A program made the translations under genes and the position numbers. Of a DNA stretch of 64,000 nt, positions 12,145-63,597 are shown one piece after another. Below the pieces are notes generated by a model. It was given only the letters and a program-made list of their open reading frames with translations, was not told the DNA's origin and searched no databases. How positions within the stretch are numbered: the first letter of the stretch is position 1; every line of letters begins with the position of its first letter. Origin of the DNA: Oxalobacter vibrioformis (GTDB lineage: Bacteria; Pseudomonadota; Gammaproteobacteria; Burkholderiales; Burkholderiaceae_D); contig NZ_CP098242.1 in the NCBI RefSeq assembly GCF_027118995.1, positions 62,001-126,000 on the forward strand. Reading direction: 5' to 3'.

Positions 12145-12323
12145 AGGGTGTGTTAACACTAAACCGCCGTTCGCGAAAAGTCGTTTTGTTTCAAAGGGCA
12201 AGGCGCATCAGAAAATCTGGATGCAGGCGTAGTCAATCTACGTCAAATTCAGATTTTTCGAGGCAACACAGCCATTTGGGACATAACGGCTTTGCAGCAG
12301 GCTGTTTCGTGTTAACACACCCT
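12145..12323. repeat. 179-bp palindromic element, copy A
   Basis: The ends are a perfect 15-bp inverted repeat (AGGGTGTGTTAACAC at the left, its reverse complement at the right), and the interior is an imperfect long palindrome. It shares an interior core (CGAAAAGTCGTTTTG; CGGCTTTGCAGCAGGC) with copies B and C and has exactly the same length, but its end sequence is different while still self-complementary. No clear target-site duplication is visible. It fills most of the 317-bp gap before kup and ends 63 bp upstream of it. Confidence 0.85.
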
Positions 12324-18419: not shown

Positions 18420-18442
18420 GCGCAAACCAGGGGCAGGCCTCA

Positions 18443-19426
18443 TTAATCCACGCGGACAACCACCCGTCCCTTGATCCTGCCGCCCATCAGCTCGGGAATC
18501 GTGTCCAGCACCTCCTCCAGCCGGATCTCATGGCTGATTTCCTCCAGCAGCACCGGATCAACGATTTCAGCCATCCGGCGCCATGCCGCATTACGCTTTT
18601 CAACCGGGCACTTCACGCTATCGATACCGGCAAGCGAAATCCCGCGCAGGATAAAAGGGGCAACACTCCCCGGAAAATCCAGGCTTTCCGCCATACCGCA
18701 GGCAGCAACCGCACCACCATACATGATGCTGGCACAGACACTGACCAGCGTCTGCCCGCCAACGGAATCAATCGCACCGGCCCACCTTTCCTTCATAAGC
18801 GGGTTCCCGCGTGTGGAAAGCGTTGTTCGGTTGATAATCTCGGCAGCACCCAGTTTTTTCACCAGATATTCAGAATCCGGGCGGCCGGTTGATGCCGTGA
18901 CCTGGTAGCCCAGCCGCGAAAAAAAGGCTGTCGCAAAGCTGCCCACCCCACCACTGGCCCCGGTTACCAGGACAGGCCCTTTATCAGGGGTTATGCCGTT
19001 TTTCTCCAGCGCCATCACGGCAAGCATGGCGGTATAGCCGGCTGTCCCGATTGCCATGGCATCTTTGGCGCTGATTTTTTCCGGGAGGCGCGTCAGCCAT
19101 TCCCCATTCACCCGCACCTTTTGTGCCAGGCCGCCCCAGCGGGTTTCACCCAGGCCCCACCCATTCAGAAAGACCATATCTCCTTTCCGGTATGCCGGAT
19201 TGCGGCTTTCTTCCACGACACCGGCAAAATCAATGCCCGGCACCATGGGAAAACTGCGAACAATCGGTTTTTTGCCTGTTATTGCAAGTCCGTCCTTGTA
19301 GTTTAGAGAGGAGTAATCGACCCTGACTGTCACATCCCCTTTGGGCAAGTGTGATTCATCCATATCCCTGAGCTCGGCTCGGTACCCCTGCTGGGCATCA
19401 TTTTCAATTACGAGGGCCTTGAACAT
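18443..19426 (-). CDS. AcuI/YhdH-family acrylyl-CoA reductase (zinc-free MDR)
   Basis: 327-residue medium-chain dehydrogenase/reductase of the AcuI/YhdH group. Marks are SSLNYKDGLAITGKKPIVRSFPMVPGIDFAG near residues 45-75, the Rossmann segment GPVLVTGASGGVGSFATAFFSRLGY near 150, and the C-terminal GRIKGRVVVRVD. AcuI reduces acryloyl-CoA to propionyl-CoA with NADPH, detoxifying a reactive intermediate. No zinc-binding cysteines are present. It stands alone on the minus strand with a 470-bp AT-rich region upstream. Confidence 0.88.
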   Translation of the reverse strand: MFKALVIENDAQQGYRAELRDMDESHLPKGDVTVRVDYSSLNYKDGLAITGKKPIVRSFPMVPGIDFAGVVEESRNPAYRKGDMVFLNGWGLGETRWGGLAQKVRVNGEWLTRLPEKISAKDAMAIGTAGYTAMLAVMALEKNGITPDKGPVLVTGASGGVGSFATAFFSRLGYQVTASTGRPDSEYLVKKLGAAEIINRTTLSTRGNPLMKERWAGAIDSVGGQTLVSVCASIMYGGAVAACGMAESLDFPGSVAPFILRGISLAGIDSVKCPVEKRNAAWRRMAEIVDPVLLEEISHEIRLEEVLDTIPELMGGRIKGRVVVRVD

Positions 19427-20651: not shown

Positions 20652-21389
20652 ATGAAAAAAATCACTCCTGAGACCCTGATGCAAATGGACCCATCCATCT
20701 TTCCACCGGAAATGATCGGACGGCTGACATTCAAAATCGCCCCGCCAACAAAAGCGCCCTTGCCTGCCGGCCAGCATCTTCTTGGCCTGGCAGAAGAACG
20801 CGACACCATCCTGATCGTCCCGGAAGGACTGGAAACGGACAAGCCGGTCCCGCTTTTCGTGATGTTTCACGGTGCCAGCGGCCATGCCGAAAAAGTCATG
20901 CCCTTTTTCACGGAATATGCGCACCAGCACAAATTCCTGCTGCTCCTGCCCCAATCCACTTACTACACATGGGATCTGACGATCGGCGGCCATGGTCCCG
21001 ATCTTGACCGGCTTGGCAAGGCACTCGATAACGTATCGTCCCATTTTGTCATTGATCCGGAACACTTCGCCCTTGCCGGATTTTCCGACGGGGCCAGCTA
21101 TGCCCTCTCAACAGGCCTGACCAATGGCGAGCTGGTATCGCATATCATCGTGCTCTCCGGTGGATTCATGAATGTGTACCTCAAAACCGGCAAGCCCCGG
21201 ATTTTCATCACCCACAGCCCGGAAGACGAGCAGCTCAATATCAAGACAAGCGCCCTGAAACACTACACGGACCTGAAAAAAGAAGGCTACGATATTTATT
21301 TCGAGCTATTCTCCGGACGGCATATTATTCATCCGCCCATGGTAGAAAAAGCCATGGCATTCTTCCTGGAAAAAAAGGCGGCAACATAA
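20652..21389 (+). CDS. Alpha/beta hydrolase (esterase/phospholipase-like), first of a tandem pair
   Basis: 245-residue alpha/beta hydrolase. VPLFVMFHGASG gives the oxyanion-hole region (near residue 77), GFSDGAS near 145 is the nucleophile elbow GxSxG, HSPEDEQL near 193 probably holds the acid and GRHIIHP near 222 the catalytic His. No signal peptide is seen, so it is probably cytosolic. It resembles carboxylesterase or polyhydroxybutyrate-depolymerase-like folds; the substrate is unknown. The following gene is a clear paralog 17 bp away, so the pair came from tandem duplication. Confidence 0.8.
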   Translation: MKKITPETLMQMDPSIFPPEMIGRLTFKIAPPTKAPLPAGQHLLGLAEERDTILIVPEGLETDKPVPLFVMFHGASGHAEKVMPFFTEYAHQHKFLLLLPQSTYYTWDLTIGGHGPDLDRLGKALDNVSSHFVIDPEHFALAGFSDGASYALSTGLTNGELVSHIIVLSGGFMNVYLKTGKPRIFITHSPEDEQLNIKTSALKHYTDLKKEGYDIYFELFSGRHIIHPPMVEKAMAFFLEKKAAT

Positions 21390-21406: not shown

Positions 21407-22087
21407 ATGACACATCATGTAAAAAAGCCAGGGCGGCTTCCCTTGTGGATCATGCCGCCATCAAAGCCCCCCCGGCCGGCCGGCAAGTACCGCCTTGCCC
21501 TTGCTGAATCGAGAGATACCCTTCTTGTCGTGCCGCAAGGACTTCAGCCGGACAAACCGGTTCCCCTTCTCGTCATGTTTCATGGTGCGCAGGAAAATGC
21601 CGCCAATGCCCTGCCCTTTTTGATCGACCATGCCAATCAGCACCGGTTTTTACTGCTGCTTCCCCAGTCCACGCGGGTAACCTGGGATATCTGCATGGGC
21701 GGTTATGGCCAGGATCTTCTACGATTGGGAAAAGCAGTGAATCTGGTCTCCAGCCACTTTGCCATTGACCCGGCGCATATTGCCCTTGCCGGTTTTTCCG
21801 ACGGCGGCAGCTATGCCCTCTCTTTAGGGCTTGCCAATGGAGACCGGGTATCACACATCATCGTCTTTTCCGGGGGCTTCATTGCCAGGCATGAAAAAAC
21901 AAACCTCCCCCCTGTTTTTCTTTCCCACAGCCCCCAAGACGAACGGCTCAATATCCAGGCCACGGGAAATCGGCTGCACCAGGAACTCAAGGCGATGGGC
22001 GCTGAGGTTGATTTTCACACCTTTTCCGGCGGGCATATCATTCATCCGGGCATCGTAAAAAAAGCCATGGCATTTTTCATGGAATGA
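21407..22087 (+). CDS. Alpha/beta hydrolase, second of a tandem pair
   Basis: 226-residue paralog of the preceding hydrolase, similar through most of its length (for example LPAGQHLLGLAEERDTILIVPEGL in the first against RPAGKYRLALAESRDTLLVVPQGL here, and matching KAMAFF ends). Catalytic motifs are kept: VPLLVMFHGAQ, GFSDGGS (nucleophile Ser), HSPQDERL (acid) and GGHIIHPG (His). It is about 20 residues shorter at the N-terminus. Both copies look active, suggesting dosage or substrate divergence rather than decay. It is followed by a 350-bp gap and then the CoA-transferase. Confidence 0.8.
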   Translation: MTHHVKKPGRLPLWIMPPSKPPRPAGKYRLALAESRDTLLVVPQGLQPDKPVPLLVMFHGAQENAANALPFLIDHANQHRFLLLLPQSTRVTWDICMGGYGQDLLRLGKAVNLVSSHFAIDPAHIALAGFSDGGSYALSLGLANGDRVSHIIVFSGGFIARHEKTNLPPVFLSHSPQDERLNIQATGNRLHQELKAMGAEVDFHTFSGGHIIHPGIVKKAMAFFME

Positions 22088-29805: not shown

Positions 29806-29871
29806 AGGTGCAACCCTCATTAAATTGTCGTTTGCGAAAGGCAGCTTTACAGCAGGCAATTTAATGACCAG
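29806..29871. repeat. Internally deleted copy D of the 179-bp element
   Basis: About 66 bp keep the left edge (CTCATTAA, GTTTGCGAAA) and the right edge (CAGCAGGCAATTTAATGA) of copies B and C but lack the middle hairpin, and the outermost right end is lost. It lies between purN and prmC. Confidence 0.7.
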
Positions 29872-33191: not shown

Positions 33192-33484
33192 AAGAAAAAG
33201 AAAAACTGTGGAATCAGTATATTATCGATTTTTTTGCAAAATAACTCGTTCATGCCAATAAAAGTAAACTATCAGCCTGAAAACGGCCTCAGGAATATTT
33301 GCGAAATGAACAATTTGACAATAAAATTGCTGGTTATTGCTTTTTCCATGCAATAAAAAAACCACTCGCTTATCCCTTGAAAAATAGGCGAGTTGCCGTT
33401 TAAGTCTCCTGAAAACCACTTATCAAAAGAGATCTTATGCCATTTTCTTAACCTGGGCTCTGCCCTCATTACAAGGATAAAAAA

Positions 33485-54850: not shown

Positions 54851-55029
54851 AGGGGCAGGACGCATTAATTTTCCGTTTGCGAAAAGTCGTTTTGGCTCAA
54901 AGGGTGATGCGCAACGGGAAATGGGGATGCAGGTGGTGCAGGCCACCATCAAGTTCCCATTTTTCGGTGCAACACCACCATTTGGGACACAACGGCTTTG
55001 CAGCAGGCAATTTAATGAGTCCTGGCCCT
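54851..55029. repeat. 179-bp palindromic element, copy B
   Basis: 18-bp imperfect terminal inverted repeats (AGGGGCAGGACGCATTAA against AGGGCCAGGACTCATTAA) enclose an imperfect palindrome with the shared core GTTTGCGAAAAGTCGTTTTGG and CGGCTTTGCAGCAGGC. The centre folds into GGTGG/CCACC and GAAATGGG/CCCATTTTTC stems. It fills the gap before the LtrA-like gene, ending 69 bp upstream. Confidence 0.85.
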
Positions 55030-61736: not shown

Positions 61737-61915
61737 AGGGTCAGGCCTCATTAAATTGCCTGCTGCAAAGCCGCTGTGCCCCAAATGGCGGCGTTGCATC
61801 GAAAAATGGGAACTTGATGGTGGGCGGCTACGCCTGCGTCCCCATTTTCCGCTGCGCCTGGCCCTTTGAGCCAAAACGGCTTTTTGCAAACGGAAAATTA
61901 ATGAGACCCGACCCT
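61737..61915. repeat. 179-bp palindromic element, copy C (inverted)
   Basis: Same length and core as copies A and B but in the opposite orientation. The ends are AGGGTCAGGCCTCATTAA and (reverse complement) AGGGTCGGGTCTCATTAA, 16 of 18 matched. Its right end abuts the ribosome binding site of the small gene at 61926. With the flanks it accounts for most of the 61532-61925 gap. Confidence 0.85.
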
Positions 61916-61925
61916 CGGAGGAAAC

Positions 61926-62114
61926 ATGAATAAACCCAGGCTCACCCTGCCCTATTCACTTGTCAGACAGGCTGCTGCCGACATGATGCTTGGCGCCAGC
62001 TACGCCACCAGCACCTGGTTTGATCCGGATGTGCTCACCCGTATAGAGCGCGTGCTGACCAACACCCTGCAAGCGGTATTTGGCAAGGAAATCATCATCG
62101 AATTTGTCGAATAA
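61926..62114 (+). CDS. 62-residue small protein
   Basis: Soluble 62-residue protein (MNKPRLTLPYSLVRQAA, then MLGASYATSTWFDPDVLTRIERVLTNTLQAVFGKEIIIEFVE): a helix ending in a short strand. CGGAGGAAAC directly before the ATG is a strong binding site, and a good terminator follows, so it is probably expressed. The leader starts within ten bases of repeat copy C, so its promoter must lie inside or across the element. The C-terminal pattern echoes small protein A at 60735. Function unknown. Confidence 0.65.
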   Translation: MNKPRLTLPYSLVRQAAADMMLGASYATSTWFDPDVLTRIERVLTNTLQAVFGKEIIIEFVE

Positions 62115-62934: not shown

Positions 62935-63132
62935 GGGCTTCTCCTGTAAAAGTGGTCCTTCATCGTGTTTATATACTGTTATAACCTAACTTTCTGAAAG
63001 AAACAATCAACGAACAATCTGTCTATCCTGATATCCGTGTGTTGATCTGTCTAGAACTCATTTCATAAATCGGCATGAATACCCTCGTTATTCAAGCCAT
63101 TGATTTGCTTATAAAAACGGTAAGTTGTGTGG

Positions 63133-63597
63133 ATGAAAAGGCGACGCGCAGAACAACTTACAGACGAACAATGGGCACTTCTGGAGCCTTTGATCCCGAA
63201 ATCCGAGAGTCATCGTACCGGTCGAGGCCGTCCGGAAGTACCCACAGACCGGGACGTATTAAACGGCGTTTTCCGGGTATTGCGAACAGGCGCTGCCTGG
63301 GTGGATCTTCCTGATCGATTTCCTTCAGGATCAACGTGTTTCAGGCGTTTTTCCCGGTGGGTCAAACAAGGCGTATTACGCCATATACTGGAAGCGCTGG
63401 CACAGGACCTTGAAGAACGCGGTGGAATTGATTTATCCGAATGCTTTATAGATGGCACCTTCACAGTGGCGAAAAAAGGGGGCTCAAAGTGGGAAAGACC
63501 AGGCGGTGCAAAGGTACGAAGCTCATGGTTATTGCAGACGCTTCTGGTTTTCCACTCGCCGTGCACACGGATTCTGCTTGGCCACATGAAGTAGAAG
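63133..63597 (+). mobile_element. IS5-family transposase, interrupted by an IS3-family element
   Basis: The first frame reads the DDE transposase N-terminus of the IS5 (IS427-like) type: EQLTDEQWALLEPLIPKS, GRGRPEVPTDRDVLNGVFRVLRTGAAWVDLP and ECFIDGTFTVAKKGG. At the A6G5 tract (63474-63484) the normal programmed -1 shift leads into the second frame, KGTKLMVIADASGFPLAVHT. The coding then ends at the joint with the IS3-type element (PHEVEVAPG). The rest of the transposase, with the later Asp and Glu, is not in the window. A possible left end lies near GAACTCATTTCATAAAT (63054), unproven. Confidence 0.8.

Follow-up and report, generated by a model that had tools for sequence, protein, structure and literature searches.

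The window analyzed here is a 64,000-nucleotide stretch of the Oxalobacter vibrioformis genome (G000; 2,606,300 bases in one contig). It holds three elements of exactly 179 bp, referred to as copies A, B, and C (loci L018, L001, and L004, respectively), which were originally predicted from the sequence alone and were borne out at the predicted coordinates when we read the letters of the window. Copy A is located upstream of the gene for a kup-type potassium transporter (PF02705), copy B lies between divergently oriented genes, ahead of one that is LtrA-like (PF06772), and copy C ends 10 bp ahead of an ATG at position 61926. The sense direction of A and B is on the plus strand and that of C on the minus strand. 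Together with shorter relatives, the features are:

12145–12323, plus strand: copy A, type II, full 179-bp hairpin element (sequence, fold, covariance model)
12145–12164, plus strand: left terminal inverted repeat of copy A, AGGGTGTGTTAACACTAAAC, resembling the end of the IS5-family element in L305
12200–12205, plus strand: 5' side of the internal-loop motif of copy A, AAGGCG, a motif common to 268-bp elements
12264–12267, plus strand: 3' side of the internal-loop motif of copy A, CAAC
12304–12323, plus strand: right terminal inverted repeat of copy A
18429–18446, plus strand: lone type I end fragment
29806–29870, plus strand: 65-bp relative, internally deleted (covariance model, E 0.0003)
33455–33472, plus strand: possible lone type III end fragment, weak
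54851–55029, plus strand: copy B, type I, full 179-bp hairpin element (sequence, BLAST, covariance model)
61737–61915, minus strand: copy C, type I, full 179-bp hairpin element (sequence, covariance model)

Each of the three copies folds end to end into a single hairpin (A, −88.9; B, −90.1; C, −96.9 kcal/mol), and all three were recovered at E 3e-38 or better with a covariance model of 20 copies, among which they are themselves training copies. It had been proposed that each copy has its own matched ends; this holds for A, which is perfectly matched over the outer 15 bp only, but not strictly for B and C, each of which has two mismatches in the outer 18 bp. The proposed central swap of TCTG/CAGA for TGGG/CCCA is genuine (alignment columns 72–75 with 107–110). 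The window also contains a 203-nt direct repeat (20967–21169 and 21680–21882; 72% identical, 713 bp spacing), perhaps a tandem gene duplication, and, near copy C, an IS5-family DUF4096 open frame of 155 amino acids (63127–63594) with no recognizable ends.

Copy B gave 37 BLAST matches in G000, and the 20-copy covariance model added more diverged copies. Of 34 long copies examined (fragments and the shorter, deleted copies were set aside), 26 measure exactly 179 bp, and the folded 179-bp copies have energies from −55.4 to −102.7 kcal/mol. Based on their ends, we distinguish subfamilies that we named I–V: type I, including B and C, ends in AGGGTCAGGCCTCATTAA; type II, including A, in AGGGCGTGTTAACACTAA; and type III in AGGCTCAGCCCTCATTAA, while types IV and V are rarer. 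The subfamilies are alike inside and unlike at their ends; whole copies of types I and II are ~60–77% identical with the greatest divergence at the ends. Three of the 34 copies overlap a predicted ORF, and we think that these ORFs are spurious. Of note, one type IV copy lies in a peripheral stem inside a cobalamin riboswitch match (L128:1427–1789; G000:C1 about 2109081–2109443) that still scores 41.9 bits (gathering threshold 31.5), and the right end of a type III copy (L139; G000:C1:2368605–2368782) abuts a type II-like end in a junction that is either nested or broken.

Many copies are also present in G040, another assembly from this species. With copy C as query, 2 of 40 genomes gave matches, i.e. 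its own genome and G005 (one 23-bp match); the covariance model identified one short relative in G005 and no copy in two complete same-genus genomes. The plasmids and phages searched gave no match to the element. In the literature searched, which included few subscription papers, we found no published name for the element, none of its end-sequence strings, and no paper pairing Oxalobacter with a miniature inverted-repeat element.

To follow occupied and empty sites between strains, we compared 16 joined G000 sites (12 elements and four lone palindromes) with G040. G040 contained the counterparts of two element sites and one palindrome site, and the flanks of the other sites, including those of A, B, and C, gave no match there; the three element sites specific to G040 were all located in G000. 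Of the five polymorphic element sites in the G000/G040 pair, four have a clean empty counterpart, namely L114 and L115 (element in G040 only) and L012 and L014 (element in G000 only), and the fifth, L150, is empty and too altered to read. Occupied sites differ from empty ones by a net gain of 179 bp. The empty-site dinucleotide is TA at three sites and TG at one (L012); because occupied and empty sites differ by one base at or beside the TA in L012, L014, and L115, only L114 is a textbook TA duplication. Of 38 copies, 26 have T|A at the right junction, where it prevails in type I and type II alike; at the left junction, 15 have T|A and 11 have C|A. At G000:C1:368764–368942, a type II copy occupies the same site as a type I copy in G040 (L085, contig C80), in the same orientation and with identical junctions, reflecting either two insertions at one target or replacement of a whole element. 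We conclude that the 179-bp hairpin element is mobile. Being short and non-coding, with terminal inverted repeats and many dispersed copies, the 179-bp family is a miniature inverted-repeat transposable element (MITE) of a known kind.

A candidate for the source of the transposase is an 821-bp IS5-family element with a DUF4096 gene on contig C54 of G040 (L305). Its left end, AGGGCCTGTTAACACTAA, matches the type II end at 17 of 18 bases and its right end at 15 of 18; G040 is an 85%-complete assembly of 450 contigs, of which C54 is a putative member. From these end matches, the 821-bp element is likely the partner of type II, and the family is very probably IS5-linked for this type. The suggestion that the elements could be a non-autonomous transposon is, therefore, supported by both the empty sites and a matching insertion sequence. 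A crude end search at DUF4096 loci, several of which gave no clear ends, revealed no insertion sequence with type I or III ends, and the DUF4096 transposase loci checked in G000 had other ends or none that we could find. Specifically, as candidate partners, IS5 elements of G000 have ends of another kind (the left end that ten multi-copy loci share, and both ends in the case of L302), and the DUF4096 gene of the window lacks recognizable matching ends. Scanning GTDB species genomes for TAGGGYSTGTTMRCAYTWAA gave at least 120 stretches, with titles shown for 80. In 46 of the 120 stretches listed, an inverted partner with at most four mismatches lies within 1.5 kb, and among the matches listed six pairs are 800–855 bp apart. 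Four of these six, all from other bacteria, were examined and their open frames resemble IS5-family transposases; frame pieces from two of the loci matched Pfam PF13340 and PF01609. IS427-group elements are described as 832–865 bp long with mostly 2-bp duplications (PMC3281130).

Besides full-length copies, the genome contains deleted forms of 65–101 bp, which on reading their sequences appear to end in short repeats on both arms, and lone palindromes that lack the core. Lone 20-bp type II palindromes (at most three mismatches) occur at 11 places in G000 and six in G040, including:

G000:C1:398666, 1845803, 1969720, 2229384, and others: lone 20-bp palindromes, AGGGCGTGTTAACACGCCCT

Some of them are flanked by CC and GG, reading CCAGG...CCTGG. 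The lone AGGGCGTGTTAACACGCCCT suggested that a palindromic target (GTGTTAACAC) is duplicated upon insertion; we rejected this explanation because the matching arms in L014 and L023 are inverted rather than direct and the four clean empty sites are without a palindrome. We interpret the lone palindromes as what deletions left behind, and they would fit deletion between two 10-bp end repeats. No change from a full to a lone form was seen between strains; the five comparable palindromes are all lone in both. For the type I palindrome, one match (with one mismatch) compares with three chance control matches and, therefore, provides no evidence.

The original prediction had interpreted the paired changes between copies as pointing to a selected DNA or RNA fold. 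In the 20-copy alignment, 96.2% of cells are paired and both sides have changed in 23 of 56 pairs. Shuffles gave a mean of 86.9% paired cells and 12.6 pairs changed on both sides, with none of 500 reaching the observed values, and slid partners gave 35.7–46.5% paired cells; in the latter comparison the observed structure is favored because the consensus pairs were derived from the very copies being compared. Against a phylogenetic null in which the same substitutions were re-placed on the tree (20 copies, 17 from G000 and three from G040), the total pairing score was 8.29 compared with −14.58 (sd 1.88; best of 300, −9.33). Nine single pairs reached p 0.01 or less, and most of them reflect a single deep split between types I and II. 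Excluding this root split, 17 double changes at paired columns fall on the same branch, of which 11 keep the pair and six do not; those that keep it lie on the tips L010, L014, L018 (copy A), and L026 and on one inner branch.

Recent differences between strains point to a second source of paired change. L008 (G000) and L082 (G040) are one shared copy that differs in the left arm. In G040 this arm resembles that of other type I copies, whereas in G000 16 bases replace an 18-base stretch and the arm is the exact complement of the right arm over 32 bases; fold energy changes from −97.5 in L082 to −115.3 kcal/mol in L008. On the sequence evidence, this difference reads as the footprint of template switching in a quasi-palindrome, apparently in one step, for which the template may have been the element's own right arm or the right arm of another copy; one more nearby base change falls outside this explanation. 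Template switching has been reported to create and maintain hairpins (PMC8794818). L003 and L121 differ by three bases in the loop stem, which matches in G040. Among 18 strain pairs of copies (of 29; the other 11 are special, i.e. L008 and L016, or not full length), G000 and G040 have 33 single differences in 3217 bp: 14 exchange a Watson–Crick pair and A·C, eight a Watson–Crick pair and G·U, six a Watson–Crick pair and another mismatch, and five are at unpaired positions. Because these differences often break pairs, ordinary copies are not visibly protected. Thus, pairing beyond both the tree and the slid controls upholds one part of the interpretation as a selected fold, whereas the rewriting of arms and recent changes that often break pairs count against the other, and paired change alone is not proof of a selected fold. 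Copying of one arm from the other seems to account for part of the match between them.

Relatives of the family extend beyond the species. In a family sample of 97 genomes, the covariance model identified relatives in three other genomes, and in six of the seven matches inverted ends enclose 268 bp. Similarly, among the matches listed in the GTDB scan, 25 of the 46 paired loci are 267–280 bp long. The 16 of these 25 with titles comprise one Croceivirga assembly and records of Herbaspirillum, Undibacterium, Pusillimonas, Achromobacter, Pigmentiphaga, Alcaligenaceae, Comamonadaceae, and Betaproteobacteria; again among the matches listed, the 268-bp elements with similar ends are mostly in Burkholderiales. 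A Maribacter assembly has elements of 159–163 bp with the same ends. Those 268-bp elements that were folded adopt a Y shape made up of two arms, an outer stem, and a CCC/GGG cap, and the 268-bp elements have in common with the 179-bp family an unpaired AGGCG opposite CAAC. Searched as a loose pattern (AGGCG, then CAAC 20–70 bases on), the motif is present, among the matches listed, in all 25 elements of 267–280 bp, four of seven of 159–187 bp, none of seven of 51–65 bp, and two of six of insertion-sequence size, and because of the latter the loose pattern is not specific; on reading the sequences, four of the five Maribacter elements have the motif. The tight form is specific: it occurs on both strands in 15 of 17 elements of 268 bp and in none of 850 shuffles. 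In these 17 elements, CTAGGCG (CTAGACG in two) lies in one arm and CAAGGCG in the other, on the opposite strand.

In 12 of the 17 elements, among which L171/L196, L193/L248, and L176/L243 are still 91–96% alike, 95.1% of cells are paired although both sides have changed in 66 of 102 pairs; five of the 17 (four among the 12) were reversed to align like arms. Shuffled controls were 73.2% paired and slid partners 33.7–43.2%. Broken or wobble intermediates are rare in this set. We read this pattern as concerted arm change together with selection on the loop and the shape, and strong selection alone could remove intermediates in these elements too.

Several described systems resemble the family in part. 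MITEPsy1 of Pseudomonas syringae is small and non-autonomous with inverted ends and an IS5-family link, as is the family described here; it is 100 nt long rather than 179 bp, has 18-nt inverted ends, inserts at CTAG or YTAA, is probably moved by an IS5-family element, and makes a 4-nt duplication that is its own (PMC3189936). The description of MITEPsy1 in that source does not mention a conserved loop motif or covariation of arms. ERIC, Correia/NEMIS, and RUP elements are also non-autonomous, have TA at their termini, are in the same size range (about 100–200 bp), and have transcripts predicted to form long stem-loops, while the word compensatory does not occur in the text of that account (PMC2229807). 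REPINs are likewise described as fixed-length mobile hairpins in which compensatory changes on both sides are common; they are far shorter, with 71 bp separating the 16-mers in group I, and thought to be moved by Y1 transposases, and their description makes no mention of TA duplication (PMC3116915). As in the maintenance of hairpins by template switching, one event here rewrites several bases while the stem stays complementary, although that process was described for RNA genes (PMC8794818) and we find it in a transposable element. To our knowledge, the end sequences of ERIC, Correia/NEMIS, and RUP are unrelated to those of the 179-bp element.

We considered several explanations for a mobile element with such paired changes. 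That this is a plain decayed repeat family, in which apparent covariation reflects the shared ancestry of a few subfamilies, is highly improbable: the deep type I/II split does account for most of the nine significant pairs, yet total pairing is far outside the tree null, 11 of the 17 same-branch double changes keep the pair, and the 268-bp elements remain almost fully paired after both sides have changed in most of their pairs. An attribution of the paired changes to selection on a structured RNA acting in cis or trans, with transposition being secondary, is unlikely. In its favor, stems change around a constant loop motif, the strand bearing the motif folds more stably than the opposite one in 30 of the 31 copies folded and likewise for 26 of 34 arms in the 268-bp set (17 elements, five of them nearly identical), and G·U exceeds A·C in strand-neutral arm alignments (types I/II, 133:60; III, 46:28; IV/V, 27:12; some A·C are in the internal loop). 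However, many G·U positions are shared by descent and recent strain differences have no wobble bias, so this strand bias is weak support for an RNA; single variants inside subfamilies are just 30:17 and 18:13 (0.6 threshold), whole 268-bp elements have no consistent strand bias, and mismatches in their arms are even (25:30 and 30:25). Moreover, no Rfam family matched the elements searched; in the window Rfam identified two tRNAs only, and in nine loci only 6S RNA and the cobalamin riboswitch, neither of which is the element. Overall, the wobble-pair strand bias and the shared loop motif in these sequences may weakly favor a structured-RNA role.

We also considered a division of labor in which one Y1 transposase moves types I and III as REPIN-like hairpins while type II uses IS5. 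The sole Y1_Tnp gene (G000:C1:828923–829213), which is RAYT-like, is flanked by TAGGGTCAGAGTAATTAA, a sequence that has AGGGTCAG and TTAA in common with type I ends, and the fixed length and common compensatory changes of REPINs (PMC3116915) would agree with this. On the other hand, the ends at the Y1_Tnp locus are related to those of the elements but differ from them, no type I or III end (at most five mismatches) is present in the 3.3 kb around the gene, right junctions are mostly TA for types I and II, and the two types occupy the same site with identical junctions in two strains, suggesting one insertion chemistry. We regard this division as quite improbable, though less so than plain decay.

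Instead, we favor as probable a joint explanation in which MITE hairpins moved by IS5 derive from a selected source lineage, undergo arm copying, and decay as ordinary copies. An IS5-family transposase, putatively of the IS427 group, would act in trans to move the elements, and an insertion with a net gain of 179 bp would comprise a 177-bp element plus the duplicated TA. The source lineage would be selected for the hairpin, its length, and its loop. The element itself is one long hairpin, and its fixed AGGCG/CAAC motif also occurs in MITE-like elements of other Burkholderiales and of a Maribacter assembly. Arm copying from the complementary arm by template switching, clear once in L008/L082, may be general; through such copying, a single step can produce paired changes. 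Decay of the ordinary copies would follow, and short direct repeats across the palindrome might give rise to both the deleted forms of ~65–101 bp and the lone 20-bp palindromes. More tentatively, and with the balance somewhat against it, the elements could belong to an undescribed multi-genus class of IS5-dependent hairpins whose loop is a recognition site, as RNA or single-stranded DNA, for their spread and whose arms turn over by copying.

The new parts of this work are the shared loop motif, the Y-shaped relatives in multiple genera, and the evidence for arm copying in paired changes. Covariation is normally strong evidence of a selected RNA fold, and here it is very strong in a jumping parasite. 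Because many copies in many strains can be compared, selection and template switching can be distinguished by direct tests. A motif common to elements with little likeness in their stems offers a concrete starting point for identifying the factor by which it is recognized, and, if the multi-genus class is real, nearly the whole sequence of these elements would turn over while the shape of the hairpin stays perfect.
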